Positions 4,188 through 28,310 of a stretch of 28,726 nt of DNA are shown here, in pieces. This DNA is from Pelagophyceae sp. CCMP2097 (lineage: Eukaryota > Sar > Pelagophyceae). The stretch is from positions 2,831-31,556 of the forward strand of contig MU657718.1 in assembly GCA_026770575.1 (NCBI GenBank). Reading direction: 5' to 3'. Both the position numbers and the translations under genes were made by a program. The notes beneath the pieces were generated by a model. The model was not told the DNA's origin. It saw only the letters and a list, made by a program, of their open reading frames with translations, and made no database searches. Every line of letters begins with the position of its first letter. Positions within the stretch are counted from its first letter, which is position 1.

Positions 4188-7100
4188 ATGATCAAGCTCT
4201 GTACGATCAAGGTCGGTAGCGCACCACTGCGCCTTCCCGCGCGCTCCTTCGCCGCCAAAAGCTCGGCCGAGCTCTGCGTACGCAACCTCTTTCGCGGCGC
4301 CACCGCAGAAGACGTCCGCCGAGCCTTTGACGTGCGTGGGTCTCGCGGGGGCGTGGGTCTCACGGGGGCGTCTTCTCGATGCCTTGCGTACGCCCGGCGG
4401 CCGTGGGACGGAGGTACTCGACTTGAAGCGTGCACTCGTATGCATTCTCGAGGGGCCGTACGTATCGGAACGTTGCTCTCGTAAGCTCGGAGCTCTACGT
4501 CAAACGTATAGGGCGTCTGCGAAGTCATTCACGTGCGCATGGCCACCGACAAGGCAGGCCGGCAGCGCGGCTTCGCCTTTGCGACCGTCGACGCCCGCGA
4601 CGCGGTCGCGGCGCGGACATTGGACGGGGCGCGGCTGCGTGGGAGGGTGCTGGCCGTCGGCGCCGCGAGAAAGGATATCAACGCACAAATCCTCGCCGCC
4701 GAATCCCCAACCGCCGTCCTCGCAGTCTTCGACGCTGGCGGGTTCGGTGGCTCGAACTTCGCGACCGCTCTGCAGAGGCTCGGCGCGTTTAAGCGCGAGG
4801 GCGCGTTGCGGCGCGACGGCGCGTTGCGCGACGCCGCCGAGGGCAACGCCGCCGAATCCTCAACGCGCGACGCGTGCGCGCCGGGCGCACGCAAGCCGGG
4901 CAGCGCGCGCGCGCCGAGCGACGCACGCGCTCTGCATGGCGACGCACTGAACGGCGCACTGAGCGGCGCCGTGACCGCGCCGGGCAGCGTCGCAGCGAGC
5001 AGAGCGAGCAGCGTCGCGGCGCTCGTGACCGCGGCCGCAACGAGCCTCGCCGGCGGCAGTCGCTGGGACGCGCGGCACCTCTGCAGCGCGGCCAGGGGCC
5101 TCGCCGTCTGCGGCGGTGGGGGCGGGGCAGACGCGGAAGTGCGGCAAGCGTCGAAATCTCTCTTCGACGCCATCGCCTCCGCGTCCGCAGACAACCTGGC
5201 GTCGTTCAACGCCCAGGACCTGGCGACGACGGCCTGGGCCTTTAGCACGGCGGGGATTGAGGCGGCGGCGTTGTTTGAAGCGGTGGCGGCGGAAGCGGTG
5301 CGCAAGGTGGCAACGTTCAACGCGCAGGATATTGCGACAACTGCGTGGGCCTTTGCAAAGGCGGGCAGCACACAGGCGGGCAGTTTGGACGCTTGGGCGC
5401 TGTTCGCGGCGATGGCCAAGGAATCGGTGCCGAAGATTGCCTCGTTTCAGCCGAGGGAACTCTCGAACACGGCCTGGGCCTTTGCGACCTTTGGTCACGA
5501 GGCGCCCTGCCTCTTCCAAGCCATCGCCGCGCACGCTTCGAAGAGGATGGCGGCCTTCAACGCGCAGGACCTGGCGAACACGGCGTGGGCCTTTGCAAAG
5601 GCGGGCGTCGAGGCGCCGTCGCTCTTCCAAGCAGTCGCCTCGTCGTCCCGAAAGAACATTGCGCAGTTCACTCCGCAGGCCCTCGCGAACACGGCCTGGG
5701 CCTTTAGCACGGCGGGCGTCGAGGCGCCGTCGCTCTTCCAAGCAGTCGCCTTTGAATCGGCGGGGAAGATTGGGACGTTCGAACCGCAAGAGCTCGCCAA
5801 CACCGTCTGGGCGTATGCGACGGCGGGCTTGAGGGCGCCGGCGCTCTTCCAAGCAGTCGCGGGGGCGGCGGTGCGCAAGATGAAAAGGTTCAACTCTCAA
5901 TCTCTGGCCAACACGGTCTGGGCGTACGCAAAGGCGCGGTTCGAGGCGCCTTTACTTTTCCGAGCGGTGGCTGCGGAAGCGAAGATGGCGGCGTTCAAAC
6001 CGCAAGAGCGCGCCGCCGTCGTCTGGGCCTTTGCGACGGCGGGGCTGGAAGCGCCGGCGCTCTTCGACGCCGTGGCGGTGGCATCGGTCAAGGAGTGCGA
6101 CGCTCGGACCCTCGCCATCACAACGTGGGCCTTTGCAAAGGCGCAGCACAAAGGCCCGCGTGCCGCGGCGCTCTTCGAGGCCGTGGCCGCGGAATCGGTT
6201 TTGAAGATCGCAACGTTCGAACCGCAAAACCTCGCGAACGTGGTCTGGGCCTTTGCATCAACGAACGTGCACGCCCCACCCCTCCTCCGCGCCGCCGCCT
6301 TTGCGGCCGTGGGGAAGCTCGTTTCAACGGACGGTTCGAGTTCCAACGGACGGTTCTCGGCGCGGGAGCTGACCAACACGGCGTGGGCGTACGCGACGCT
6401 CGGCTTTGAGGCGCCGGCGCTGTTCGAGGCCGTCGCTCGAGAATCGTCAAAGAAGATTGAGATGTTCAACGCCCGAGACCTCTCCAACACGGCGTGGGCT
6501 TTTGCTAAAGTTTTCTCTCCAACGCCGCTGAAAACGGCGGGGCCGGACGTTGAGGCGTTGTTCGAGGCCGTCGCTGCGGCATCGGTGAGGAAGATTGCCA
6601 CGTTCGACGCGCGCGACCTCGTCAGCATTCTGTGGGCTTTTGCGACGGCGGGCGTGCAGGCGCCGTTGCTCTTCGAGGCCGCGGCGGTGGCCGCGGTGCA
6701 AAAGATGCCGTCGTTTGGAGCGCGAGGTCTCGCGAGCATCGCGTGGGCTTTTGCGAGAGGCGCAGCCACGGCGCCGCTCGAAGACCCCACACAAGCTCTC
6801 CTCGGAGCCGTCGCCGCCGAGGCGCCGAGGCAGATTGCGGACTTTGCCTCGCAAGACCTCGCCCAGACGGCGTGGGCCTTTGCGAAGGCGGGCGTGGCGG
6901 CGCCGTTGCTGTTCGAAGCAGTGGCCGCGGCAGCGTCGAATAAGATCGCGACGTTGGAACCGCAGGAGCTCGCCTTAACGGCGTGGGCCTTTGCAAAAGC
7001 GGGCGTCCACGGCCCGCGCGCCAGGGTCCTCTTCGGGGCCCTCGCTCTCGACTCGATTTCAAAGATCGAAAGGTTCAACGCGCAGGACTTGGCCAACACG

Positions 7101-7556
7101 GCGTGGGCATTTGCATCGGCGCCTTGGTCGGCTTCGGACCGCCAGCTCTTCGCCGCCGTCGCCGCCGAGTCGAGGAGGAAGATTGCGGCGTTCAACGCGC
7201 AGGACCTCTCGAACACGGCGTGGGCCTTTGCAAAGGCGGGCGTCGAGGCGCCCCAGCTCTTCGAGGCCGTCGCCGCAGAAGCATCCAAGAAAATTTCGAC
7301 GTTCAACGCACAAAACCTCGCAAACACCGCGTGGGCCTTCGCGAGGGCGGGCGTCGAGGCCCCGTCGCTCTTCGAGGCCGTCGCGGCCGAATCTGCAAAG
7401 AAGATGGACACGTTCAACGCGCAAAACGTCGCAAACGCGGCGTGGGCCTTTGCGGCGGCGGGCTTTGAAGCGCCGAAATTGTTCGAAGCCATTGCGCGGC
7501 GTCGGAACAAGCATGCGACAGGGGCCCAATGCGAACAATCGCACCGCGGCATTTAA
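4188..7556 (+). CDS. RRM plus 20 WAF/WAY helical-repeat protein, two exons
   Basis: Exons 4188-4331 and 4512-7556 join in phase across a GTGCGT...TATAG|G intron, giving 1,062 residues. The intron splits an RNA recognition motif: RNP2-like LCVRNLFRGATAEDVRRAF in exon 1, then GVCEVIHVRMATDKAGRQRG and RNP1-like RGFAFATV in exon 2. A low-complexity Ala/Arg linker (about residues 105-210) follows. The rest is a tandem array of about 38-40-residue alpha-helical repeats, consensus F-N-A-Q-D-L-A-N-T-A-W-A-F-A-K-A-G-V-E-A. I count 20 WAF/WAY cores plus one degenerate leading unit. These resemble the octotricopeptide/'ANTAWAFA' repeats common in algae and linked to organellar RNA binding. No RAP domain is seen at the C-terminus. 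A transcript-binding role is inferred; the organelle is unknown, and no clear targeting peptide precedes the RRM with this start. Residues after FEAIA (about 1,040) are non-repeat, so the true 3' end could be spliced differently. Confidence 0.88.
4332..4511 (+). other. Intron splitting the RRM between RNP2 and RNP1
   Basis: A 180-nt intron with donor gtgcgtgg and acceptor gtatag followed by G. Splicing is phase 0 on both sides and restores the order RNP2, helix, beta strand, RNP1. Unspliced, the frame of exon 1 runs on without RNP1, which supports removal of this segment. Confidence 0.82.
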
Positions 7557-11748: not shown

Positions 11749-14700
11749 CTAAGGCTCGGGCACCACGTCGACCGCGGCGGCGTCGACCGCGGCGGCGTCG
11801 ACCGCGGCGGCGTCGACCGCGGCGGCGTCGACCGCTGCGTCGGCCGCCGCAGCAGCCGCGGCGGCGGCGTCGGCGGGCGCGTCGGGCGGCGCCGAGAGCG
11901 CCTCGATCTCGCGCAGCACCTTGTCGTGCCTAAGCGCGGCGTTATGGCGGGCCTCGATGCGGGATCACGTCTGCGCGGGCTTTTACAGCAGTTGCCACTT
12001 GATTTCCGAAAGTCCAAAACCAAAAGCCTCGGCCAAAAGCAAAAGCCAAAACCAAAGGCATGTCAAAATCTCAATAAGGCGGATATTTAGGATTTTATCA
12101 AATCAACTTCCTACATTTTTGGGCACAATTCTCACAAATAAGACTTTTGGGATTTTATTAAATCTTTAAATATCTGCCTTAATGAGATTTTGACATCTTT
12201 GGTTTTGGATCTTGGATTTTTGCTTTTGCTTTTGGCCGGTGCTTTTGGACTTTCGGAAATCAAGTGGCAACTGCCGTAATTTCCCACACCCGGTCGGCAT
12301 CATCTCGTGCCTGCCTCTCTTTGGAGGACCGCACACGAAATCCCGCTGCCTCTCGCCCCCCGGGCGCCGTGCCCGCTTCCTCGGCATGCGTCGGCATGTG
12401 TTGAGAATTGTTCGTATTCGAGACGGTCCCTCGAGGCGGTCCCCCGAGGCGGTCCCTTTCGACGGTTCCTCTCGGGTCCTTGAAGAGCTTTCTGGACGGG
12501 CCCCTGCAGAGGCCTCTTTGGCGGCCACTTGCGAGGCCCCTGGTCGCTTGCGATGCCTCTTTTGAGGGCTCTTGCACACGGTTCCTATCAATCTCCGGAC
12601 GGCGCCCTCTTTGGCGGCCATTCGCCAGACCGAATGCACGGCCCCTTGGAGGGTCCCTTTGGACAGGCCCTCTGGAGACTGGATGGTCTCTCTGGACGGC
12701 CCCTCTGGACGGGCCCGACGGGCCCTCTGGACGGTCCATCCAGACGGCCCCCTGAAATGTCTCTCTCTGCACGACGGCCCCTCTGGACGGTCCCTCTGGA
12801 AAGTCCATTTGAAGGGTCCATCTGGGCGTCGCTGAACGGTCCGTTTCGAGCAGCGAGGGCGCCGGAGGAGGCTCGACGGGACACTCCCCGCGCGGGGCTC
12901 CTCGCGCGGGGCTCCTCGCGCGGGGCTCCCCGCGCGGGGCTCCCCGCACGGGGCTCCCCGCACGGGGCCTTGGCCAGCGCCGACTCGTTCCACGGGCCCT
13001 TGCACGGGCCCTCGAGGCGGTCCCTCGCAAGGCCTCTTTCATGGGTGCGGCCTCTTGCAAAGGCGCATGCGAAATGCCCTCGAAAATCCGCCTCGAAAAG
13101 GCCCCTTGCGCAGTCTCATGCAAAGGCCCCTTGGACAAGGCCTCTCGCACGGGTTTTCTGCAAGGTGCACTCCCTTTGGATGGGCCTCGAGGCAAGGCGG
13201 GAGGCGGCTCCCTTGAAAACGCGGGTCCTCGCACGGCGCCTCGCGCGGACCCTGGGAAGACGCTTTGCGAGGCGCCTCGAAAGGGCCCTTTGGCGGTCTT
13301 TGCGAGGCTCCCGTTGGCCTCTACTGTGGCCTCTTCGACGGCGGCGCCTCGTGCGGTCAGAGGGCGGGCCTCCCGGTCCCTCGCGGGGCCCTCGGCGCCT
13401 GCAAGGCCACTCGAAAAGGGCCCTTGCACGGGCCTCTCGAAAAGGGCCATTGCAGAGGGCCCTCGCAAGGCTCCTTGTGGATATGCCTCGCCCCGGCGCC
13501 CAAGGACGGGCCCTTTGCGAGGCCGGGGCGGCGGCACCCTCGCCCGGTGTGCATCGTCACCGGAGCCACAGCCTTGATGGGATGCACCCGATCCGTACGG
13601 GGTCCCATGCGGCGGCTCGGGGCCCTTTGACGACCCGGAAGACGCGGCGAGGCGCCCGCATCGGGTCGAAGACGATGGCCGCCAAGAAGGACCGTCACGA
13701 TGATCGAGCCCGTCGAGGAGATTTAGATTATGGGCTCCGTTTTTGGCGACTAAATTACTCTGGCTCGAGAAGGAGGGCCGTCTGGAAGAATGCGGAGGAC
13801 CGTCTTCAAGGCCAGAGGGCAAGGCCTTCTCGAGGACATTCTTGGGGCCGTCTCGAGACCGTGCCAAGCAACGCTCGAAAAACGTCTCTCGAGGGCCGTC
13901 TCGAAGACCGTCTCAAGGGCCGTCTCGACGACGGTTCCTCGTTTTGAGGCAGTCTCGAGGGCCGTCTCAAGGGCCGTCTCGAGACTGCCTCGAGGGCCGT
14001 CACGAGGACCGTCTTCAGAACCGTCTCGATGCCGCCCCCAAGCCGTCGAGAAGGACCGTCTCAAGTTCGTTTTGAGGCCGTTGAGAGGCCGTCTCGAGAA
14101 CGGTCTCGAGAACGGTCTCGAGAACGGTCTCGAGAACGGTCTCGAGAACGGTCTCGAGGACGGTCTCGAGGACGGTCTCGAGGTCGGCGTGAGACCGCCT
14201 CGAGGGCCATCAAGAGGGCCGTGAAGAGACAGTTTGTTGAGCCATCTCGAGGGCCGTCTCGAGGGCCGTCTCGAGGACCGCCTGAAGAGCCGGGACCCTC
14301 TCGATGTCGTTTTGGGACCCTCTCGAGACCGTCTCGAGGGCCGTCTCGAGGACCGTCTTAAGGGCCATCTTCAAAGCTGTCTGAAGAGCCGTTCTCAAGC
14401 ATCGTCTCAAGGACCGTCTCAAGGACCGTCTCAAGGACCGTCTCAAGGATCGTCTCGAGGACCGTCTCAAGGATCGTCTCGAGGCCGTCTTCAAGACCGT
14501 TTTGATGGCGTCTCCGAGCCGTCTGTCTCGAGGACCGTCTCGAGGGGCCGTCTCGAGGGCCGTCTCGAGGACCGGCTCGAGGATCGTCTTCAGGTCGTCT
14601 CAAGGTCGTTTTGGGACCGCCAAGAGACCGCCGAGAGGGCCGTCTCGAGGGCCGTCTCGAGACCGTCTGAAGGACCGTCTCAAGGGCCGTCTCGAGTGCC

Positions 14701-17700
14701 GCCTCGAGTGCCGTCTCAAGGGCCGCCTCGAGTGCCGTCTCGAGTGCCGTCTCGAGGATGTTTTGAGACCGTCACGAGGGCCGTTAGGAGGGCCGTTTTT
14801 TAGGGCCGTTTTTGAGGGCCGTTTCGAGGGCCGTTTTTGAGGGCCGTCTTCCAAGCTGCCTCAGAGGCCTTTGAGAAGACCGTCGCAAAGGCCGTTTTTG
14901 CCATTTCCTCAGGGGCGCTGGACATGGCCATGATGCCGCCTTCTCGTAGTTGATGTTGAGGTCGAGCGACTGCGCAAAATGGTCGCGCGCTTGCTCGAGC
15001 TGCCTGCGGGCAAGACGGTGAAAATGCGGGCAACACGGTGAAAAGCGCCCCAAAAGACAAGGCAATGTTACCCGAGGGAATAGTGGCAAAGGCCGATGTT
15101 GTGCGACGTGACGTGGTGCGCGCCGATGTGCACCTCGATCACAGGTCAGATCGATCACAGGTCAGATGGGGACCGGGTCCATCTCAAAAGTGCAAACTGT
15201 CGAGCGCAAAAGAGGCGACAACGCCGGATCCAAGGGAGTGGCGTTGCGTCGTCCCGCGCTCGAAGAAGACCACAATAAGAAAGGGCGATTCACGGCCCGA
15301 TGCGATGCCCCGCGTGGTCCCTTTTTCCCCGCGACGGCGAGTCGCCCAATGTCCCGATGCACCATCCCTCGAAGCAAGACTATGCACTTGCAACGCGCGA
15401 CACGTCGCACCGTCGAGACGTGGTAGAACTCGAGCGCCTTTTGATAGTCCCGGATGCCGTAGTAGAAGCGGCCGACCTATTTGCTCGAACTGGGCACGGG
15501 CCCCAAACAAGGCACGACGGCCAAAACAAGGCACAACGGACCTCGAAGGCGACGTCCTTGGCTCTGTCCAGCGCGAAGTAGTTGGCCCAGACGCGAGGCA
15601 GGTTTCGGCACAGATCATTCCGCAGTTTCTGGCCGCAGGCAGGCACCTATGGCCATTTTCGTGCGACTCGGAATGCACTGTTCAATGCATCAAAGACCGG
15701 GCAAAACGACTGGAAATGCACCTGGTTCAGAATCACGTCCCTGAACTTGTAAAACACGTCCGGGTCCCAGTCGCTCAGCTTGAGCAGCGCCACGACGGCT
15801 TTCAGGGCCGGGGCCTATGCGGCATCAAAAGTACAAAATCGGGCTGGGCAACCCGAAATCCGCAACGACGCCACGAGCGCGCGGCTTCGAGGCCCGGCGG
15901 CCGCCCGGGCGGCCGCGGGCGGCGGACGTCTGGCCTCTGGCAGTACAGAGGCGGGAGCGCGGGCCGCCTCGAGGGCCGCCGGATCGTCTCGCGGCCCGTC
16001 TCTGCGGTTTTTGGGGCCGTTCAAAAGCCGCGTTGGGGCCGTTCAAAAGCCGCTTCCCGAATCTCGACGGCGCCTCGCGGACCGGGGCGCCCGTCTCAAG
16101 CCGCCTCGATGGCCGTCGGAGAGGCCGTCTCGAGTTCATCTCGGTACTTCATCTCGGGGCCGTCGAAAAGGACCGTCAAAGGGCTTGTCAAGAAGGCAAG
16201 TCTCCAAGCCTGTCCTGGGGCCGTCGAGAGGGGCAGTCTCGCAATGGTCTTGGACCTCGAGAGGGCCGCCGTTCAGGCCGTCTCGAGGGTCTCGCGAGGC
16301 CGCCTGCGGGAACGCCGAGGGGACGCTGACTCACGAGGCGTCGTCGAGAGGGCCGTCAAGAGGCCTTCTTGAGACCGCCTCGGGCTTGTCTCGGGGCCGT
16401 CCCGAGGACCGTCTTGTCTCGGGGGCCGTTTCGGTGCTTCTCCGTGATGCCTCGATGCCGTCCCGATGCCGTCTCGATGCCGTCTCGAGACCGTCGCGAG
16501 ACCCGTCTCAAGGACCGTCTCGAGGGCTCTCTTTGAAGCCATTTCGAGGACCGTCTTGAGGCGCCTCGAAGGCCATCCCGAGAATCAAGGCAAACTCGAG
16601 GGCCGTCCTGGGGCCGTCCTGGGGCCGTCTTGAGGACTGTCTTGAACGCCGTCTCGAGGCCGTCTTTGAGGACCGTCTCGAGGGCCGCCTCGAGGGCCGG
16701 CTTAAGTCCGTCTCAAGGCCGTCTCGAAAACCGTCCCAAGGGCAGTCTTGAGGCCGGCCTCTGGACAGTTTCGAGGACCGTTTCGAGGACCGTCTCGAGG
16801 ACCGTCTCGAGACCGTCTCGAGACCGTCTCGAGACCGCCTCGAGACCGCCTCGAGAGGCCGTCTCGAACCCGTCTCGGGCCCGTCTCGGGACTGTCTCGA
16901 GGACCGTCTCGAGGACCGTCCTGGGGCCGTCTTCAGGCCGTCTTGGGCCGTCTCGAGGGGCCGATTTATGACCGTTGGGTTCGACTCGAGACCATCTTCA
17001 AGCCGTCCAGACCGCCTCAAGGACCGTCTCGAGGCCATCTTGGGGCCGTCTTGAGGCCGTCGAAACCGTCTCAAGGACCGTCTCGAGGCCAGTCACGAGA
17101 CCGCCTTTGGGCCGTTTCGAAGACCGTCTCGAGGGCCATCTCGAGGGCCATCAAGGAAGTCGTCTCGAGGCCGCCTCGAGAGCATCGAGAGACCGTCGCG
17201 AGAGACCGTCGCGAGAGACCGTTTCAAGGACCGTCGCGAGGCCCGTCTCGAGAACCGCCTCGAGGGCCGTCGGGGGACCGCCTCTCGAGGGCCGCCGAGA
17301 GGCCGCCTGCAGGGCCGCCTCTCGAGCCCGCCGTTTCGAGGGCCGTCTCGAGGACCGTCTTTGGGGCCGTCTCGAGGGCCATCTCAAGGACCGCCTTCAA
17401 GAAGGCCGTTCCAAGGGCCATCTCGAGGACCGTCGAGGGCCGCCCTTGGTGCCGGTTCGAGGACCGACGAGGGACAGTGGAGAGGTCGGTCAAGAGACCG
17501 CCTCGAGGCCGTCTCCGGGTCGTCTCCGGGTCGTCTCCGGGTCGTCTTGAAGCCGTCTTAGGGACCGTCTTGGGACCGCTTCGAGGACCGTCTTTGAGAC
17601 CGTCTCGAGGGCCGTCTCGAGGACCGTCCTGGGGCCGTCTCAAGGGCCACCGAGAGGCCGTCGCGAGGACCGTCTTTGAGACGGTCTCGAGGGCCGTCTC

Positions 17701-20700
17701 GAGGACCGTATTGAGGCCGGTGCGGCGACCGTCTCGGGTGTCTTTGGCGGTCCGTTGAGGTCTGGCGGTCCGTTGAGGTCTCGAGACTGCCCCGCGGTCC
17801 GTGGACTGGGCCCTTGGAGGCGGCGTTGCAGACGGCCCTCGAGACGGCCGTCCTTGGGGAGGGTGAAGCGGTCCTTGGGGTGTTCGAAGCGGCCTTTTTG
17901 GGGCGCATCGCTTTTCCAAGAAGGTTACCTGCGCGTCCTCCTTGAGCGACTTTTGCAAGACGAAGAAATCGTTCGGCCTAAGTTCCGTTGGAGTTTCGTG
18001 CCGTTCAAAAACACACAAAATACATACACAAACACAAATACGAAAAGTGCTGAATACAACGGACCCGAATCGAACGACGGCGTCCTGGAAGATATGTCCC
18101 AAATGCGCAAACTTCAACGCTCTTTGCGCCGCCGCATTTTCGCAAGCCTCTGTCCACGCCATGGGCGCCGCCGCGCTCGCCTCCACCGCCGCGTCCGCCG
18201 CCGACGGGGCCGCATCGCTCGCTTCGTCGCCTGGAAATGATCGGTCAAGCTCCGCGCGCGGGATTCTGCCACCCGACTTCGTATTGGCCCATACGAGCGC
18301 GCGGGACTCGGGGCTCTCGGCGAGAGGGCGCTTCGAAGCCCGTCGATTGGGCTCGTCCACCCCCGTCTGGACCGTCGACGGGGCCGTGTACGACCCCCTG
18401 TCGGACCGTAAGGACCGCCACGTACCGACACGGTGGGGCGTGTCTGGCCGTCTCCGGCCCGGCGAGGGTCCGTCTCGGGCCGTTGAGGGGCCGTCGAGGG
18501 GCCGTCGAGGCGTCGCAGCAGGACGGTCATGCATCCAGAGGCCGTCTCCGTCTCGGGGCCGTCTCGGGGCCGTCTCGGGGCCGTCTCCGGACTTTCTTTG
18601 TGCCCCCCCCTCGCGGGGCCGCGCCGTCTCCGGGGCCGCATAGGTAGTTGGACGACGACGACGGGGGCGAAGAAGACCGTCTACGAGACCGCCATCGGAC
18701 CGTTGAGCGTCCCTCTCCCCGCATATGCATCGCATGGGCCCGTCTACGAGGTCTCTGTCGGAAAACGGGGCCTCCGTCGAGGGTCCCACGGAACCGTCGA
18801 CGGTGCAGCCGTCTCCAGGGCCGTCTCGGACCGGGGCCGTAGAGGGGCTTGAACGGAGGCGCCCCCCGCGGTCCGACAGAGGGCCGTCTCGGGGGCGTAC
18901 AACCGCGTCCGTCTAGGAACCGTCGACGGTGCAGCCGTCTCCAGGGCCGCGTGGGACCTTCGAGGGGCCGCATCGGACCGTCGACGGAGCGCATCGGACC
19001 GTCTCCGGGGCCGCATCGGGCCGTCGAGGGGCATTTCGAGGGGCCTTTCCTGGACCGTCTCCGGGGCATTTCCCGGACCGCCTCCGTCGGACCCTGGGGA
19101 CCGGCCGGGACCGACAAAGGGGCCGTAGATGACCATCGTCGAGGGGTCCCTCTATCCGTAGAGGAGTCGCGTGGGGCCGTCTACGGGGGCGCATCGGACC
19201 GTCTGCGGCCTCCGTCGGACGACGGAGGCCTCCGTCAAGGAGTCGCATGACCAACCGACGGCACTGCCGCTTCCAGGGCCGCTTCGGCCACGTCTCGACC
19301 CCGTCTCGGAGCCCGTCTCGGAGCCATCGAGGAGCCATCGAGGGGCCTTGAACATACCGCCTCGCGGACCGACAAAGCCTTGCCAGAGTCAAGGACCGTC
19401 TCCGGACCGTCTCCTCGGACCCGGTAGACAAGGCCCCCGACTTGGATCAGGTGGTTTTCGCACCCGTTTTCGCACCCCGACGCGTACTTTCGAGAAGGGC
19501 CCTCGATGCCGCCCTTGCAAATAGCCGGCAGTGGCCCAACAGGCGCACCCAGCACCCAACAAGTGCGCACCCAGCAGCACGAAGACGGAGACCTTGAGCG
19601 AGGCCTCCTCCTGCGGGTTGTGCAGCGCGAAGCCGCCGCGCGAGGCGCAGTACAGGCCTACACGGCGCTCCAGACACGCCGCTGCAAGACCCCAAAAGAC
19701 GCACCCAGCGCGTGGTAGTTGACCATGACGGAGAACGACCCGTGCACCGCAATGTGCGGGTCCAACTTGCCCCTGAACTGCTCCGGGTTGTTGTTGCCCT
19801 ACGATTTCAGGGAATTTCGGGGGTCCAACGGAAACAGTGCCGCGCACCTTATCGCCGGAGATGACCACGGCGCGGCCGCCCGACAGCGCCACCTAATTGC
19901 CGTCCGACGGGTTTGGATGCCGTCCGCCGCGTTGCCCTCTCGGCGGGTTTGCGTCCAGCGGGTGTGCGTCTCGACGGCCCGCGCACGCCGCGGTGCGCAA
20001 CGAGGCGGCCCTGCGTCGCGCGGCGGGTGTTTCCTTTCGGTGCGTCGCCGTGCAGAGCCGCGTGGGGCCCGGTATGGGTTTTCCATATTCGGGCGCGCAC
20101 GTGCTGAATTCGCACCTCTTCGAGACAGTCGCTTCGAGACAGTCGTAGAGACGGTCCCGAAGCCGTTGCAAAAGGCAGTCAGAGAAGAGGCCCGTCTCGA
20201 CGGCCTCTCCATGGTCCTCGAGGCGGCTTGGAGAAAATAACGGTCCTGAAGACGGCCCTCTCGGCGGCCCTTCAAACGGCCCTTCAAACGGTCTTTTCAA
20301 ACCGTCTTGAGCCGAGACGGCCCTCGGGACGGTCTGAAGAGACGGCTCTCGAGACGGTCTTCAGACGACTCTGAAGACGATTCTCGAGACGGTCTTCTAT
20401 ACGGCCTTCTATACGGCCTTCTATACGGCCTCCAAACGACCTCGAGACGGTCCTGGAAACGGCCCTCGAGACGGCCTTCTCGACGGTCTCTTGGGGGGCC
20501 TCTTGACAGACTCGAGACGGGCCCAAGACGGTCCTCGAGACGGCCCTCGAGACGGTCCTGAAAACGGCCCTCGAGACGGCCCTCTCGAGACGGCCTCAAA
20601 ACGGCCGCGAGACGGCCCTGAAGACGGCCCTCGAGACGGGCTCGAGGCCGTCGTAGAAACGGAGACGACGAAGAGACGGTCCCGAAGCCCGTCTCGAAAG

Positions 20701-23700
20701 CCGTCTCGACGGCCCTTCTCGACGACGCGATTTCGGTCCTCTGCAGCGTCTTTGCAGAATGCCTCGGGCGGCGCCTTTGACGGGCTCAAGATGGTCATTT
20801 CGACGGGCCTCTTCCTCGAGGGGGACATCTCCGAGAAGACAGATCAAAAAAATAAATAAATAAATAAATAAAATAAAATAAAATAACAATCCTCTCGGAC
20901 TCGGATTCCTTTTCTAGGCGTCTCTGCGCATGCCGCCGCGGCCGCGTCGAGGGGCCGTCTCGTGAGTCGAATCGCGTGCACGGGCCCGTTTGCACGGAGC
21001 CTCCCGAGTGCCCTTTTTTAAGAGGCCGCTTGCAAGACCCCGCCGGGACCCTTTTCGAGTGGCCTCGCAACGACCCGCGCAGACGGCCTTGCAGGGGACC
21101 GTACAAGAGGAGTGGCCCCGCGCGAAGGACCTTTGACCGCGGAGGCACCGCCCAATCTTGCAACGGACCGCCCAATCTTGCAACGGACCGCCCGGGCGCC
21201 TCTTCAGGGCCCGCGCCAGAGGCCCCGTACGAGGGACCGAGGGGGCTCGCAGGGCGCCCCGAGGCCGTGCAAGGGCCCGTACGAGGGGAGCGGCGAAGGG
21301 CCGTCGAGAGGGGCCGTCGAGAGGGGCCGTCGAGAGGGGCCGTCGAAAGAGACGAATTAGAGAGCTGTCTCGAGGAACCGCGTAGAAAAGCCATCTCTTC
21401 GGGGCCGCATCCAAGGGCCCTCGTGGGCCGCACTTGCTCGGGGTCTCTGCAGAGGGGCCTTTTGGGGGCCTTGTTCGACCACGGACTTTTTCAACGGACT
21501 TGGCACCCACGAGCCCGCATGCACTCCCGTGAGCCCGCACGGGACGAACCCCGCCGTCCACCGCCGCCGGTCCGGAACTGCACGGACGCCGGTGCTCGCC
21601 AAGTTGCGCATCGCTCGCACGGCGCCGATGGGCACCAGCACCGATGCGCCGCCGGGGCTCTCCCCGAAAAACTCCGTGTACCTTTGTTGGACTGTGCGTC
21701 TGACGGGCTCGATTTTTGTGTCGCGCGGCCCTCTTTTTCGCCAGGGCGAACGCACCAGCGCAGGATGCGCCGAAGGTGCGGCGCGTCTTGGTCGTTCTCG
21801 GCGTCGTAGTAACTTTCGTCGACGGGTCGATACGTGAACGCGTTGTCCAACCTGTTTTCGTGGTTGTCCAACCTGATTTCGAGGCAAGAATCCCGGCAAG
21901 AATACAGAAAATCCAGAAAATCCAGAAAATCCAGAAAATCCAGAAAATACAGAAAATACAAGAGGGGCAAGTGCCCAAGAGGTCCCCGCGACAGAGGGCC
22001 CCGTCTCCCGAGGGCCCTTTGGCCACGTCCCCGTGGCAACGTCGCCGTGACCTCGGACTCGTATGTCCCCGCGGCGCGCTTCCCGCAACGGCGCCCTTGA
22101 AACCGCAACGGCGCCGCCGTTTCAACGTCTTCGTGACAAGGTCGACGAGGGCCATCTGGCAAAGGGCCCTCTGGCCACGTCGCCGTGACAACCGTGACCT
22201 CGGACCCTGCGACAGAGGTCGCCGTGGCGGTCAAGATCTCTCCGACGAGGTTCCTGCGGCAAAGGCGCGACGAGGGCCCCGTGGCAAGGTCCTCTGAAGG
22301 GCCTCAGACGGCCGAAACGACGTCGTGAAGACGAGGCCGTGCCAAGGTCCCAACGCAAAGAGATCACTTGGACAAAGTCGTTAAAAGGCCGTTGGAAAAA
22401 GCCCCGTTTCGTGGTGCCTCCCCGTGAAGAGGGCCCCGTGGCAAGCTGTGGCACCGTCCCAGCGACGAGGTCCCTTTGACATGCACCCTGTGACATGCAT
22501 CCTGTGCAAACGTCCCTGAGAACCCGAAACTTGTGGCAAGAAGCGTGCAAACGTCCCCGCGGCAAGGTCCCTCGGGCAAGTCTTTTGTGAGACGAACCCC
22601 GCGGACATCGGTCCCCGCGACAAGGCCCGCGTGGCAAGGCCCGTGCGACGAGGTCCCTGAGAAAACCTTGGTCCCCGTGTCCAGTGCCCCGTGGCTACGT
22701 CCCCGCGAACAGGCCCGTATGGCAAAGACTCCGCCCGGCGGGGAACCGGTGGCGAGGACCCTGCGTTCCCCGCGGTCCTGTCGTGTGAAGACGTGAAGAG
22801 GCCCTCAAGACAAGGTCCCTGTGATGAAGTCCCTGTGATGAAGTCCCTGCGTCGAGGACCCTGTGCCGAGAACTCCGTGGCACGTCCCCGTGTCAAGGTC
22901 CCCGTGACAAGGTCCCTCGGTCTTTGTGACACGAACCCCGTGACGCGTCCCCGTGACCCATCCGATGAGGTCTTTGTGATGAGAACCATTTGACCCGTAT
23001 CCTGTGACAAGGTCCTTGTGACAAGGTCCCCGTCACAACTGCCCTCTACCAAGGTCCCTGAGACAGACTTGTGTGTTCCTGTGACAAGTATCCTGTGACA
23101 AGTATCCTGTGACAAGTATCCTGTGACAAGTATCCTGTGACAAAAGTCTGTGACGAGAATCCCGCGACACATTGTGACAAGGCCGCTGCGCCAAGGGCTT
23201 TGTGACCGTGATGCGAGCCCAGGCAAAGGGTCCCGCGACAAGGTCCCAGTGACAAGGCCCCTGTGACAGTCCCGTGAATCGATCCCCGTGAAAGGTCCCT
23301 GCGACAAAGTCGCTACGACTCGGTCCCTACCAGGGCCCTGCGCAAGGCAACGGCGACAGGGTCGCCGTGAAACCCGCTGAAAAGGCCCTCTGAAAAAGGG
23401 CCCCGCAAGAACCTCATCACAAGAACCTGATGACGAGAATCCCGTGGCGAGAAACCTGAAACAGGGTCGCCGTGGCAGGAGCCCCGCGACAAGGCCCCCT
23501 ACGACCAAGTCCCTCTGACAAGTTCATTTCGACAAAGTTGCTCTGACACGGTCACGATGGTCCCTCTGACGAGGTCACAAAGGTCCCTGCCCCGTGAAAA
23601 CGTCCCGGCAAGAAGCCTGCCGACGAGGTCCCAGTGACAAGGGCCCTACGAGGTCCCTCGGAACGGTGCCTGCGACGTGGTCCCTGCGAGATGCACCCTC

Positions 23701-26700
23701 TGGCAAGGTCCCTGCGACAAGCACGCTGTGAACCGAACCCTTTAGACAAGGTCCCCGATGCAGTCCTCCTGAAAAGGTCGCGTGGCAGTCCCATGAAGAG
23801 GGCCAAAGTCGCTTGGCAAGGCCCTAAGGCGATTGAAAGGATCCTCGGATTTTGGCCAGGCCGTCGCAAGGTCCTTTTGAGACGTCGACGAGGACCCGTC
23901 GAAAAGTTCCCATGAAAGGTCCATTTGACAAAGTGACGAGTTCATTGAGACAAAATGACGAGTTCCCTTTGACAACGCGACGAGGTCTCCGCGACAACAT
24001 CTCTGCGACGAGGTCGACACAGGCCCCGTGGCACGGGCCCCGTGGCAAAGTCCTCTGACGAGGGCCCTGTGACAAGGGTGGAACGTGACCCGAAACGGGC
24101 CATTTTTGAATACGTCGCGTGAAGACGTCCCGCGACCCCCTTTGGCGGCCACACTTTGAAAGAGGTTCTACGCAGAGGTGAATCGGTGCATGCGCAAAGG
24201 GCGCCGTTTTGGCAAGGTGCCTGTGACGAGGTATGACGACGTCCCTTTTATCCCATTTGACAAGCGCCCCACGGTCCGGACAGATACGCTCTCCGTCGAA
24301 ACCCCTCTCTCTCGGTCGAAACCCCCGTGACGAATGCCCCCTGTGGCCTCTGCTCTCGAACCCCGTACCGGTGTCTGACGAGGTCCCTGAGAGAACCCTG
24401 TGGCAACGTCGCCCTGGCAACGTCGCCCTGGCAACGTCGCCCTGGCAAGGAGGCAGCAACCCTGTCACAGGGTCCCCGTGACGAGGCCTGTGCGACGAGG
24501 CCCTTTGCGTGACGGCGCGCGTCCTGACCGCCGAAATCGTCTCGAGGCGGCCTCTTTCTTTCATCATTCGGCCTTCTTTCATCATTTTTTCGGCTTTCTT
24601 TCTTCATTTTTTCGGCCTTTTATGCCTTTCTCCCGTCGTGATTTCTCTGCAATTCGAGACTGACCTCGCGATGATGGCCGGGTCGAGCGCGTCGGGCTCC
24701 GAGGCGGCGCGCGATCCGACGGAGATGAGGCCCTCCATGAGGCGACCCTCGTCGACCTACTTGATCTTTCGACCTCTTCTTCACTCGCCCCGCTCACTTG
24801 GAAGACGTCGTGGCAGAGCGTGTCGAAGAGGTAGTTCGCAACGACGCAAATCGGGTTGGCGCACGTGTTCTTCGAGAGGATCTTCCCTAAGCCGACGATG
24901 CGAGATATTTCCCGCGTTGGACCCAATACTTGCCGAGAGAGGCTCCCTCCGTAAACCTCCCTCCGTAAACCTCCCGGAGGGATACAGGGCCCGTCGAAAA
25001 GGTTCCGGTAGAGGGATCGTTTCAGGCGGACAGGTAGAGGGATCGTTTCAGGCGGACAAGGAGATCGTTTTAGGCGGCCCGCCGAGGCCCGCCGAGGTCC
25101 GCCGAGGCCCCGGTGAGCCCGCGTGGGTACGTTGTTGGACCGGCGTCCTTGCAGGGCGGTCCGACGACGTCTGCAGAGGCCGTGCGGACCGGCCCGTCGG
25201 ACGGCGACGAGGGGCGGCGTCGAAAGACGGCGACGAGAGATCGCACAGGGATTGCACACAGGGACCGCGTCCGCGTCAGATCCCTTCGAGGTCAAAGCAT
25301 GCCCGTCTACGGTCCCGTCTCCGGTCCGTCTACGGTCTCCGTCCCCGTCTCGACGCCACGTGCAACGGCTGAGGTGCGCCCCTCGCACTAAAGAGCTCCG
25401 GGGCCCCGTTCACCGCGTACCGCTGTGGTGGAGCGTGATGGTCTCGTCGTTGACGGCGTCGAAGATGGCGAGGTCGAGTTGGCCGTTGTCGATGTATTTT
25501 TTTAGGCCTAGGAAGCAACTCCGAAAGGCAAACGGGAGCAAGTACGACGGGCATTCCTCGAGGAAATACGCGAGTCCGCCAACGAGAGCGCGCCTCGCCG
25601 AATGGCCCGACGGCGCCGGCCTCGAGCGGCGCCGCTCCCGGCTGGACCGAATCGAGGGCTTTCGAGATCGTTTCGAGGGCCGGCGAGAAGACCGTCTCGA
25701 GGACCGTCTCGAGGTCGCTTTGAGACCGTCTCGAGGACCGTCCTGGGGGCTGTCTCTTCAGACCGTCTTGAAAGCTGTCTCAAGGCCGTCTCAAGGGCCG
25801 TCTCGAAAGCCGTCGAGAGGACCGTCGAGAGGCCCGTCCCAAGATCGTTTTGAGGCCGTCAAGAGGCCGCCTCGAGGCCGCCTCGAGGACCGTCTCGAGG
25901 GCCGCCTTGAGGGCCGTCTCGGTGGCGTCTCCAGCCGCCTCGAGGACCGTCGAGCGGCCCTCGAGACGGGCCTCTTCTATGACTGTCTTCTGGAACGTCT
26001 TCTGGAACGTCTTCAAAAGCCGTCTTCAAAACCGTCTGAAGATCGTTTTGAGGCCTTCTCCGTGCCGTCAAGAGGGCCAGCAAGAAAGCCGTCGAGAGAC
26101 CGTCTCGAGGACTGCCTCGAGGGCCGTCTCTCGAGGGCCGTCTCGAGGGCCGTCTCGAGGACCGTCCTCAGACCGTTTGAAGGGCCGTCTCTTCAGACCG
26201 TCTCGAGGTCGGTTTGAGACCATCTCGAGGGCCGTCTCGAGGGCCGTCTCGAGGGCCGTCTCAGAAGCGTCTCCGCCTCGCCGCATTCGCATCCATGCCG
26301 AATTCGCAGACGGAAAAACGTGGCGCGTTTCCCCAGGCATGCTTGCGGCGCAGTAGATACCTTCGTGCTCGTTCCAGAATTTAAAGTTGGCTTCTGTAAA
26401 GTCGGTCATGACGTAGACGACTTTGCTCATCGGGAAGTCGACGAGATCGGCCATCTCCGTGAGCGCCTAGAGCAACGACTCGAGCAACGACTCGAGGCAA
26501 TACGAGACTCCTTGTGAGGAAATAGACAACTCTGGAGCGGCACCGCTTCGCAGCGTCGGCCTCGCGAGGGGCCGCGCGCTCTCCGCCTTTGGGGCCGCGT
26601 CTCTCGCAAGGGCCCAGCGCCGCCGTCACTCGAGAGGGACTTTCTCGAGGGGGCCTCTCAAGGGACCGTGTCGAGGGACCGTGTCGAGGGCCTGTGTCGA

Positions 26701-28310
26701 GGGACCTTCTCGAGGAGGCGTCTCAAGGGACGGTGCAGAGGAAGGGTCTCGAGGGACCTTGTCGAGAGACCGTGTCTAGGGACCGTCTCAAGTGACCCAG
26801 GGACGGTGTAGAAGGACCTTGTCGAGGGACCGTCTCGATGGACGGCGTCCTCGGGTCCGTCTCGAGGGGCCGTCTCGAGGGACCTTTCTCGAGGGACCTT
26901 TGTCGAGGGACCGTATTCTCGCGGTCGACGGGGCATCTCCGAGGGGCCTTTCTCCTCGGAGGTGCGGAATGGCCCCTTGGAACACGGCCAAAGGTTGGGG
27001 GGCCTCCTCTTCAAGTCTGGAAAAGGTTTTGAACACTTGGGAAAGGCTTTGCCATTGGGAAATTCCAAAAGCGCCATTGGGCAATTTCCAAAGCGCCATT
27101 GGGCAATTTCCAAAGAGCCATTGGACAATTCCAAAGAGCCCCCGGAACGCCTCCTTTGGGCATGCCACAAGTTTGCACAGCGCCTCGAAAGCGAACCGTC
27201 TCCCAGGACTGCCTCCTTTGAGCATGCCGGAGGCTGCCCCAAAGGACACGGCAGGCACGGGCCGTCTCTCGGGACCCCAAAGATCGAGCCCTTTCGAAAG
27301 GGCCCTCCGGCAAGGACCCCTTTGAAATAGGGGAACGGGTGACTCTTCGACCTTTAAAAAAACTCTGCAAGAACGCTTCGGCCCGGGGCAACAAGGAGAC
27401 CCCAAAGAACCCGTTGGAACTCGGACCGACCACTCTTGGAGCCCCCAAAGGGAGTGGCATGGGTCCAACACGCTCCCTCGGAAGCCCCGTTCGAGACGAA
27501 CCTTGAGCATAAAAAAGCTAAACTTGCCAGACCCGGCGCCGAGCTCGACGACGTACAGCGGCTCGCTCGGGTCGAGCCTAGAGGGCGGGTGGTCTACGAC
27601 GGCGACGCCTCGAAAGGATGCCTTTCCGCGGCGCCAAAGGCCCGTCGCCGCCTCAGCCGGGCGCGGGTCGCTTGCGGCATCTTCGCCCCGGGCCGCGAAC
27701 AGTCGCGGATGAAGCCCAGGAGGACCTGAAAACCCGTCGGCAAGGGCAACGGGCGAGGCCAAAGCGTGGGCCCAATGCGACTTTGGCGCGAAGCCAACGG
27801 CACAAGCTTCCAATGAAAACCCGCACCTTGGCGTATGCCCTTCCAATGAACGCGTTACATGTGATGAAGTGCGGCACGATGCCCGTCGACCACGACTCGA
27901 CGCCCTTGCGGTCGTAGAACGACCTGCGGGGGGGCGATAGACGAAGCGCAAAGAGGCGCAAAGGCCGCTGCCATCCCAGGGAAAGAGGCCGCCGAGGCGC
28001 GGTCCGCGCCGTCGCCGGGGGCTTCGTGCGCGCGGCGCGGAGCGAGCGGCGGGGTTTGGGGCGATTGGACACTGGCTTTGGGCATCATGAGCTTCCATAA
28101 GTGCGAGTCACTGAACCGAGTAAAGTCCTCCAGCACGGTCCGCCCCTTTGGCGCGTCGCCCGAGCGCACCTCCTCCGCCGGCGCCTCCGCCGCGGAGGCG
28201 GGGGATTCCGTCATGTGCGGTCGGCTTAGGCGCAGCGGCCGGCGCGCGGTCGAGAATCTCGGCGAGCGGAATTTCTGTTGATCGCCGAAGAGAAACCGGT
28301 CCACCATCAC
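11749..28310 (-). CDS. SAM-methyltransferase-like/TPR protein, 21 exons with repeat-filled introns
   Basis: I reconstruct 21 exons whose lengths sum to 2,052 nt (683 residues plus stop) in uninterrupted phase. Residues 1-110 hold LEDFTRFSDSHLWKLMMSF and WSTGIVPHFITCNAFIG. Residues 132-150 hold a class I methyltransferase motif I (VVELGAGSGKFSFFMLK), followed by an acidic strand end (VVYVMTDFTEAN, D172), LAIFDAVND and NPICVVANYLFDTLCHDVF. The last is reminiscent of the MidA/NDUFAF7 'ANExxDAxP' segment. Residues 275-413 carry FTYRPVDESYY, VVISGDK, HGSFSVMVNYHALG and GFALHNPQEEASLKV. After GPNDFFVLQKSLKEDAQ comes DWDPDVFYKFRDVIL, then TPR-like helices (FYYGIRDYQKALEFYHVS; HNIGLCHYSLGQLEQARDHF). 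The tail is a coiled region (ALRHDKVLREIEAL) and VDAAA repeats ending VPEP. All 20 acceptors are AG|G; 17 donors are GT and three are inferred GC. Substrate and location are unknown. Confidence 0.85.
11767..11826 (-). repeat. 15-bp coding minisatellite (VDAAA repeats)
   Basis: Four perfect copies of gtcgaccgcggcggc run from 11767 to 11826, with a partial copy following. On the minus strand they encode VDAAA repeated near the C-terminus, next to a poly-alanine stretch. Copy number is likely to vary between strains. The tail ends VPEP. Confidence 0.85.
11988..12274. mobile_element. 287-bp foldback element inside the last intron
   Basis: The outer 32 bases (11988-12019, starting gcagttgccacttgatttcc) are an exact reverse complement of 12243-12274. 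Complementarity continues imperfectly inward to about 12098 and 12150 through caaaagcaaaagcc and tgtcaaaatctca words. The AT-rich centre is loop-like. It lies in the terminal intron of the minus-strand gene and is much more AT-rich than its surroundings. No coding sequence and no clear target-site duplication is visible, so it is called MITE-like on structure only. Confidence 0.78.
12410..13560. repeat. Intron array, GACGGTCCCTC / AAGGGCCCTTGC variants
   Basis: Part of the 2,984-nt last intron. At 12410-12840 units such as gacggtccctcgagg and ctggacggcccct recur every 11-16 bases. At 13000-13470 the variant is ctcgaaaagggcccttgcac. Between them, 12885-12968 is a clean 14-bp tandem of ctcctcgcgcgggg/ctccccgcgcgggg (six copies). 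The predominant core is gacgg on the plus strand, opposite to the next array. Long frames across it are repeat artefacts. Confidence 0.78.
13560..13790. other. Non-repetitive island between two opposed arrays
   Basis: About 230 bases without the short unit separate the gacgg-oriented array on the left from the ccgtc-oriented array on the right, within the last intron of the minus-strand gene. Short protein-like frames can be read on both strands (for example AAIVFDPMRAPRRVF on minus), but none has matching AG|G and donor signals in phase, so I do not call an exon. Confidence 0.4.
13790..14880. repeat. Intron array, 12-bp CCGTCTCGAGGR units
   Basis: The unit ccgtctcgagga/g recurs, in places perfectly. 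At about 14098-14185 the variant cggtctcgagaa/ga runs for seven to eight uninterrupted 12-bp copies. The central CTCGAG is palindromic. It lies in the last intron and stops about 60 bases from exon 20. Since 12 bp equals four codons, repeat-derived frames of 100-190 codons run through it. Confidence 0.88.
15950..17740. repeat. Intron array, CCGTCTCGAGG units (intron 15)
   Basis: Fills most of the intron 15815-17928. It uses the same ccgtctcgagg core in the same polarity as 13790-14880, with variants ccgtcctgggg, ccgtcgcgaga and, at about 17510-17545, four tandem copies of tctccgggtcg. Both ends of the intron (about 140 and 190 bases) are free of the repeat. The intron is flanked by well-supported exons (KEDAQ and APALKAVV). 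Confidence 0.87.
18400..19400. repeat. Intron array, CCGTCTCGGGG and ACCGTCGACGG variants (intron 13)
   Basis: Lies in the intron 18231-19570. At 18540-18595 the unit is an 11-bp tandem ccgtctcgggg. Elsewhere it is longer and mixed (gcatcggaccgtcgacgg, ccgtctccggggc). The core polarity is mainly ccgtc on the plus strand. The family differs recognisably from the neighbouring introns' CCGTCTCGAGG type. Confidence 0.8.
20130..20740. repeat. Intron array in reversed polarity, GAGACGGCCCTC units (intron 10)
   Basis: Within the intron 19893-21587, the unit reads ctcgagacggccct or ctcgagacggtcctg, the reverse complement of the CCGTCTCGAGG arrays elsewhere in the same gene. A ctatacggcctt tandem occurs at about 20398-20430. 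A single transcript of the gene would contain both polarities and could pair with the arrays at 13.8-17.7 kb. Confidence 0.85.
20847..20886. repeat. AAAT/AAAAT microsatellite
   Basis: An A-rich run of aaat units followed by aaaat units, about 40 bases, between the reversed array and the rest of intron 10. On the minus (coding) strand it is a T-rich stretch within the intron. Confidence 0.85.
21300..21349. repeat. 13-bp tandem GGGCCGTCGAGAG
   Basis: About four consecutive units of ggggccgtcgaga, the last one altered to cgtcgaaagaga. The polarity is ccgtc on the plus strand, opposite to the array at 20130-20740 in the same intron, so intron 10 itself contains both orientations. Confidence 0.8.
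21852..21959 (-). repeat. 9-bp tandem CAGAAAATC next to an exon acceptor
   Basis: About six units of cagaaaatc/cagaaaata occupy 21904-21959. On the minus strand this is a pyrimidine-rich gattttctg run ending about 50 bases before the exon 9 acceptors, where it could serve as a polypyrimidine tract. Next to it (21852-21890) the acceptor-proximal gttggacaac...aacag segment is duplicated with a 21-base offset. Confidence 0.75.
21960..24540. repeat. Intron array, GTGACAAGGTCCC units (intron 8)
   Basis: Most of the intron 21852-24664 repeats words like gtgacaaggtccct and gcgacgaggtccc about every 13-16 bases. The cleanest part, 23078-23133, has four perfect 14-bp copies of cctgtgacaagtat. This family has a different consensus from CCGTCTCGAGG but shares the GGTCC/GACNAGG flavour. 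Frames of 100-375 codons on the minus strand here are periodic (TGTLSQ-, ILVTGYLSQ-like) and are repeat artefacts. Confidence 0.85.
24557..24628. repeat. Degenerate CTTTCTTTCATCATTTTTTCGG tandem
   Basis: About four imperfect units combining cggc(c)ttctttcatcat and tttttcggctttctttctt lie at the donor-proximal end of intron 8, about 40 bases from exon 8. On the minus strand they are purine-rich (gaaagaaggccgaa). Confidence 0.7.
24887..25420. other. Intron 6 of the minus-strand gene
   Basis: A 534-nt intron between exons 6 and 7. It has short local repeats: ctccgtaaacctcc doubled near 24950-24975, gagggatcgtttcaggcgga doubled near 25013-25050, and cgccgaggccg units near 25078-25110. There is no long CCGTCTCGAGG array. 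No nested gene is evident. Confidence 0.6.
25660..26270. repeat. Intron array, CCGTCTCGAGG units (intron 5)
   Basis: Occupies the middle of the intron 25508-26360 with the ccgtctcgagg/ccgtctcgaga unit, including runs such as ccgtctcgagggccgtctcg near 26225-26260. It is essentially the same family as introns 15 and 20, although these introns are 8-12 kb apart in the gene. The intron ends (about 90-150 bases) are free of the repeat. Confidence 0.86.
26630..26940. repeat. Intron array, 13-bp GAGGGACCGTGTC units (intron 4)
   Basis: Within the intron 26467-27501. Tandem units gagggaccgtgtc and gagggaccttctc repeat about every 13 bases, a length not divisible by three, unlike the 12-bp family. Further left (26460-26500) the word gagcaacgactc is doubled beside the exon 5 acceptor. 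Confidence 0.82.
27050..27142. repeat. 22-bp tandem GCGCCATTGGGCAATTTCCAAA
   Basis: About four units of gccattgggcaatttccaaa with single-base changes, inside intron 4. Unrelated to the short GC-rich units beside it and noticeably more AT-rich. Confidence 0.8.

Follow-up and report, generated by a model that had tools for sequence, protein, structure and literature searches.

A predicted single-copy methyltransferase-TPR gene of Pelagophyceae sp. CCMP2097 with introns probably expanded by short tandem arrays

The window analysed in this study, i.e. the whole stretch of 28,726 nucleotides, is a part of contig C459 of Pelagophyceae sp. CCMP2097, an alga of the Arctic Ocean. Its plus strand carries a coding-like signal at positions 739-3087, belonging to a neighbouring gene, and an open frame at 4533-7553 (1,007 aa) with matches to FAST_1 (94.7 bits; cut-off 27.4) and DUF1601, which contains runs of a 111-nt (37-aa) repeat and whose putative product may have an organelle RNA-binding role. 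A further coding sequence lies on the minus strand. It is predicted to consist of 21 exons, which, after correction of the join with homologous proteins, form one open frame running from position 28307 to 11749 (2,022 nt; 673 codons plus stop) with no internal stop. The gene spans 16.6 kb, of which 87.8% (14,537 nt) falls into 20 predicted introns of 41-2,999 nt, in agreement with the earlier estimate that 88% of the gene is intron. In a codon-usage scan, the segments scoring above 18 between positions 11,761 and 26,466 were exclusively minus-strand ones, one of them being an array.

Exon 1 (28084..28307) begins with the predicted start ATG at 28307, which is 3 nt inside the position (28310) from which the gene had been thought to start; it encodes an N-terminal part that is not conserved and ends at a GC donor. 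The joined model, the homologue alignment and a genome match of the homologue P0005 together support exons 2 (27827..27923), 4 (27502..27577, encoding the methyltransferase motif VELGAGSGKF), 5 (26361..26466), 6 (25421..25507), 7 (24798..24886), 9 (21756..21851, placed at the downstream of two in-frame acceptors), 10 (21600..21681, with a GC donor), 12 (19705..19798), 13 (19571..19657), 16 (15722..15814), 17 (15542..15646), 18 (15411..15476) and 19 (15072..15133), the last of which encodes TPR sequence and is also supported by Pfam. The model and the alignment support exons 3 (27676..27725, with a GC donor), 8 (24665..24756), 11 (19848..19892), 14 (18065..18230, an alanine-rich linker poorly conserved in its first part), 15 (17929..17977) and 20 (14929..15003, again TPR with Pfam support, and with a GC donor). 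Exon 21 (11749..11929) encodes a weakly conserved Ala/Asp-Val tail and ends with the stop codon TAG.

An alternative join of 21 minus-strand exons, also without an internal stop, comprises 2,052 nt (683 codons); judging by its total length, this is the join of the original prediction, but the homologues favour the shorter model. The two differ at three junctions, which were changed on the homologue alignment: exon 3 is extended by 3 nt, the end of exon 10 lies 12 nt earlier and exon 9 starts 21 nt later, at the second copy of a duplication. This tandem duplication of 21 nt (21842-21881), which straddles the 3' splice site of intron 8, creates two in-frame acceptors 21 nt apart, the downstream one being favoured by the homologues. 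In a fresh alignment with 12 homologues, all 20 junctions lacked majority gaps and insertions in the three residues flanking them on each side. Identity to these homologues was 51-89% per exon, with the exception of exons 1, 14 and 21 (34, 33 and 18%, respectively), whose outer limits are soft because of their poor conservation. Four of the 20 predicted donors (introns 1, 3, 10 and 20; ends guided by homologues) are GC instead of GT, which is a high share, the comparison with other genes of the genome being a glance at seven chaperonin introns. Two predicted acceptors are not YAG, namely those of intron 9 (AAG) and intron 18 (GAG).

The joined protein matches Methyltransf_28 (PF02636; 25.0 bits, curated cut-off 23.3) and TPR_2 (30.8 bits, cut-off 27), as expected from the earlier proposal that a single gene encodes a methyltransferase-like and a TPR part. 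A protein search revealed 322 proteins at E<=0.001 among 7,993 scored. Twelve homologues taken from the best 120 listed were 53-66% identical to the predicted protein, and the first seven in that list (P0001-P0007) all have the two kinds of domain in a single chain, contrary to the possibility, raised with the original prediction, that the two halves are always separate proteins in other organisms. Homologues of Aureoumbra, Ectocarpus, Triparma and Phytophthora are named among the matches listed. With both domains in one chain and similarity along the conserved length, the protein falls into a stramenopile Methyltransf_28-TPR orthologue group. Since other stramenopiles also have both parts in one protein, the methyltransferase-TPR fusion is, judged from these protein comparisons, an old stramenopile gene, and a new domain fusion was rejected, the two-domain architecture being shared with the homologues.

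When the genome (66.2 Mb in 638 contigs) was searched with P0005, all 13 matches were located on contig C459 and each overlapped an exon of the model; the gene is single copy. The long array-filled gaps could raise the suspicion that the exons come from more than one gene, or from a decayed copy, and have been joined by chance. This is hardly credible in view of the full-length single-chain homologues, the gap-free junctions in the homologue alignment, the lack of a stop in 2,022 nt and the lack of a second copy in the genome; separate genes are rejected by the gap-free homologue continuity across the 20 junctions.

P0005 is an Aureoumbra protein bearing the name "type II protein arginine methyltransferase". 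A structure model of this homologue (not of the present protein; mean pLDDT 73.8, 32 sequences) was compared with the PDB, and MidA (5ztz) was the sole match below E 0.001 (E 4.2e-05), with a weak superposition (TM 0.24/0.38, rmsd 9.1). Among PDB entries found by sequence, the top ones were mainly designed TPR proteins, accompanied by one weak methyltransferase match (AprA, E 0.029). The protein is likely to be a MidA/NDUFAF7-like S-adenosylmethionine methyltransferase (predicted activity) with a TPR half binding a partner. It is like the MidA and NDUFAF7 enzymes in its Methyltransf_28 match above cut-off, and unlike them it has, together with its stramenopile homologues, a C-terminal TPR half.

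It had been anticipated that such a gene would be left unannotated. In line with this, no near-identical protein model was listed either in the full-length search (best 120 of 322 matches; at most 66% identity over the 12 aligned) or with the 221 C-terminal residues as the query (local identities of up to 81%, over 48% of the query), and the protein collection includes at least one CCMP2097 protein (P0121). These searches address models of about the length of the queries, and models much shorter or longer, or N-terminal only, lie outside their scope, so that the expectation is not proven.

Seven introns of 853-2,999 nt hold 12,861 of the 14,537 intron bases (88%). For each intron, self-match by lag was compared with the best of 100 mononucleotide shuffles. 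The values exceeded the best shuffle clearly in introns 4 (lag 13, 0.360 vs 0.311), 5 (lag 12, 0.463 vs 0.335), 8 (lag 14, 0.423 vs 0.291), 10 (lag 12, 0.400 vs 0.315), 15 (lag 12, 0.417 vs 0.317) and 20 (lag 12, 0.438 vs 0.293), and barely in intron 13 (lag 11, 0.354 vs 0.342). The earlier statement that, of the seven introns of 0.8-3 kb, six have a long array of their own is thereby confirmed. Two shorter introns did not rise above their shuffles: intron 6 (534 nt; 0.344 vs 0.344) and intron 18 (277 nt; 0.326 vs 0.374). The arrays are: (i) in intron 4, a 13-nt unit at 26633..26914 (minus strand, gene-sense), (ii) in intron 5, a 12-nt unit at 25690..26273 (minus strand, gene-sense), (iii) in intron 8, the core of degenerate 14-nt arrays at 22809..23588 (minus strand), (iv) in intron 10, a 12-nt unit at 20313..20646 (plus strand, antisense to the gene), (v) in intron 13, weak 11-nt arrays at 18459..18587 (minus strand, gene-sense), (vi) in intron 15, a 12-nt (also 11-nt) unit at 16458..17709 (minus strand, gene-sense) and (vii) in intron 20, a main array with a 12-nt unit at 13887..14849 (minus strand, gene-sense) and a second one with a 14-nt unit at 12884..12968 (no strand assigned). 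By eye, the units of 11, 12 and 13 nt have a common CTCGAGACGG-like core, from which the 14-nt unit differs. On the gene strand, a separate near-perfect 9-nt array (21901-21957; 6.3 copies) immediately precedes the acceptor of intron 8. The arrays had been described as GC-rich, which is correct in absolute terms (0.60-0.69 in the long introns), but these values are near that of the genome as a whole, for which the available text of the genome paper gives 85.8 Mbp, 62% GC and 27% repeats (PMC9756366); the published assembly and the one analysed here are thus not of the same size.

Repeats with a period of 9-16 nt cover 15.3% of the window and about 0.9% of the comparison DNA (TRF score >=60), the latter consisting of 20 hand-placed 10-kb stretches of larger contigs, of which three were all N (L022 and L023 on contig C1, L041 on C26) and eight more partly N, leaving 149.6 kb readable. 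Candidate places for the 12-, 13- and 14-nt arrays number 630, 378 and 201 genome-wide, and 40 candidate places scored per family yielded 96, 71 and 103 matches, respectively; the families are also present on large contigs, e.g. C1, C3 and C25, which ties C459 to the assembly. The assembly owes its name to a chaperonin (CCT delta) encoded on contig C2, which over the full query is 100% identical to a CCMP2097 protein; RuBisCO gave no match. Copying of arrays between the introns of this gene is not favoured: for the intron 20 array, 17 listed places on other contigs are better matches than the array of intron 15. Places of different families were found within 5 kb of each other in 8 pairs (mean of 3.0 in within-contig position shuffles; p 0.0125) and within 10 kb in 12 pairs (5.7 in shuffles; p 0.006), in a test that used the 38, 40 and 39 best-scoring places, not a census, and estimated lengths for many contigs. 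Six of the 8 and 8 of the 12 neighbouring-family pairs had the same orientation relative to the window.

Intron 20 also contains, near the last acceptor, a fold-back (MITE-like) dispersed repeat of 297 nt (11983..12279; no strand assigned), whose outer arms of 62 nt are 84% complementary (folding z -18.5; 100 shuffles) and of which there are 110 candidate copies in the genome, 40 of them scored. By eye alone, there is a hint of a TA duplication. This element, together with patches of 34-172 nt common to some array neighbourhoods and with the introner elements reported in pelagophytes (PMC9481584, in the text available), would fit a delivery of the arrays into introns within mobile elements (introner or MITE-like) followed by their expansion, instead of an origin in place. 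We consider such a delivery decidedly improbable. Common insertion ends around the arrays were not found in masked sequence of 16 array loci and 8 window introns, the shared patches in this set differ between pairs and are partly other repeats, and 1.6 kb separate the fold-back element from the main array of intron 20.

Introns of other genes were sampled in two ways. In the gene-first sample, drawn from chaperonin, kinesin and adaptin genes, 65 within-gene gaps with a median of 107 nt were formed from 108 of 132 exon-level matches; two gaps reached at least 800 nt, both in one adaptin gene on contig C26. Pairing was restricted to nearby colinear matches, so that genes combining small exons with long introns are under-represented and the sample is biased against long introns; a few isolated fragments of chaperonin and kinesin may come from genes of this kind. 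Inspection for arrays covered the two long adaptin gaps and the ends of seven chaperonin introns. One of the adaptin gaps is an intron of 885 nt, across which the profile continues from 352 to 353, and it holds a gene-sense 13-nt array (self-match 0.378); over the 4-kb locus there are 18 core motifs in sense and 7 in antisense. In the other gap there is an additional adaptin-like segment (E 0.011, not reaching the cut-off), and the self-match of this gap has no peak at 11-14 nt. In the array-first sample, 16 array loci were scanned, with L006, L011 and L013 left out of the Pfam search. At two of the 16, the same gene was recognised above the Pfam cut-off on both sides of the array: a histone deacetylase (HDAC) gene (L017; profile to 254 and from 246) and a PEP carboxylase gene (L008; to 113 and from 129). 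One-sided support was obtained for RrnaAD at L014 (26.2 bits, cut-off 24) and, below the cut-offs, for CFAP58_CC at L005 (24.2 bits, cut-off 27) and CDC27 at L007 (17.8 bits, cut-off 24.5), each with same-strand coding-like segments lacking a Pfam match of their own on the opposite side. L015 had no Pfam match.

The arrays tend to have one orientation with respect to the gene. They are gene-sense in all three cases with Pfam support on both sides (HDAC, PEPcase and adaptin), at the three one-sided loci L014, L005 and L007, and in five of six window arrays (introns 4, 5, 13, 15 and 20 sense, intron 10 antisense), the motif count of intron 8 being unclear (3 vs 4). L003 and L012 appear to be sense on both sides without a Pfam match, and sense neighbours flank the array on one side at L010 (EF-hand) and L021 (a weak allene-oxide-cyclase-like match below the cut-off). 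L004 (Sel1), L016 (PfkB) and L019 (WD40) run counter to this tendency: at these loci the closest exon with Pfam support is on the opposite strand, and exons of the same gene were not seen on both sides of the array. The sample is small, and since codon scoring could itself be biased towards the strand of the motif, the Pfam-supported cases carry most weight.

The intron 20 array, taken as RNA, folds much more stably than dinucleotide shuffles, with z values of -10.9 and -11.0 for the two strands (20 shuffles each). Four 12-nt arrays fold better than all their unit-permuted copies with the period kept (0/20, 0/40, 0/40 and 0/40 as good), the 14-nt array stands out modestly (0/20; z -2.2) and the 13-nt array does not stand out (2/40), folding better in antisense than in sense. 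These controls are approximate, since small indels within the arrays are disregarded by block permutation. The 12-nt units have a self-complementarity that exceeds what repetition as such would give, but it does not explain the orientation. RNA genes were rejected (no Rfam match at the gathering score and no ARAGORN gene), and folding is not supported as the reason for the orientation, given the equal values of both strands in intron 20 and the better antisense folding of the 13-nt array.

The gene-sense bias and the self-complementarity of the 12-nt units suggest that the RNA of the arrays may be compatible with intron removal or assist it. A stronger version of this idea is that the arrays are functional RNA elements, which by folding in the gene sense or by binding splicing proteins join distant splice sites or mark the intron, the unit and the orientation being kept by selection. 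The presence of similar units in arrays at many unlinked places would fit it, as would the orientation counts, the 12-nt arrays that outfold their permuted copies and the splicing mediated in zebrafish by paired intronic repeats, as described in the accessible part of a review (PMC9198270). We nevertheless regard it as unlikely. The intron 10 array is antisense, in intron 20 the array folds to the same extent in sense and antisense and the 13-nt array folds worse in sense, with 2/40 permuted copies as good; moreover, homogenised satellites share units without selection, the position of the array within the intron varies and the orientation sample is small. Slightly less probable is its most general form, in which orientation-fixed, self-complementary intronic minisatellites with a few related units of 11-14 nt would act genome-wide in the pre-mRNA, either folding introns as modules or offering a landing strip to a splicing factor, and array growth would set intron length in this lineage and permit long introns in an otherwise short-intron genome.

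The reading that we prefer, and consider very probable, is that of one single-copy methyltransferase-TPR gene with 21 predicted exons and minisatellite-expanded introns, which likely grew by slippage and are likely spliced out. The introns would initially have been short, like those of 40-200 nt sampled elsewhere in the genome, and 11- to 14-nt repeats of the genome-wide minisatellite families would have grown within them by replication slippage. The whole span would be transcribed as one pre-mRNA, from which the arrays would be removed by ordinary splicing at GT-AG and, for four introns, GC-AG sites. If this is true, gene finding in such genomes fails at array-bearing introns, since repeat masking hides the introns, and the 12-nt unit, which has no stops in any frame, invites false genes. 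The locus would also be a kilobase-scale case for testing passive slippage against splicing help of intronic satellites, made tractable by the recurrence of a small set of related units at many sites, for the confirmed cases mostly with one orientation relative to the gene. To specialists, the link between long introns and arrays in a genome where the sampled introns are short (a small sample), and the orientation bias, may be of interest.

A literature search, mostly without subscription papers, did not bring up a study of such intron arrays in CCMP2097, and the word "intron" does not occur in the main text of the genome paper (PMC9756366). Three known systems are comparable. Pelagophyte introner elements, according to the available portion of PMC9481584, have a characteristic length of about 210 bp and, like the arrays, are a repeated sequence common to introns of many genes in a pelagophyte, whereas a tandem array without common ends was seen in the loci compared here; closely similar units of intron length, the criterion for introners, were not found among 16 loci and 8 window introns (short introns left out). 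In zebrafish, dinucleotide repeats at opposite intron ends affect splicing (Lin et al. 2016, as cited in the accessible part of the review PMC9198270). Self-complementary intronic repeats are the common feature, but in zebrafish there are two arms at the intron boundaries and the splicing effect has been shown, and in CCMP2097 there is one array per intron. The third system is that of the Drosophila Y genes kl-3 and kl-5, whose satellite-DNA-containing introns comprise megabases of simple satellite, as far as the accessible text of PMC6508621 describes them. In both cases a protein gene is mostly intron filled with short tandem repeats. The Drosophila satellite is of megabase size and Y-linked, whereas the present arrays are of about 0.3-1.3 kb, have units of 11-14 nt, belong to several families on many contigs and are mostly gene-sense. 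Tandem repeats dominate introns of one coding gene here too, the longest intron being 2,999 nt and thus far from megabase size, and the gene therefore resembles those with satellite-containing (gigantic) introns in its working, without being classed as a member of that group.
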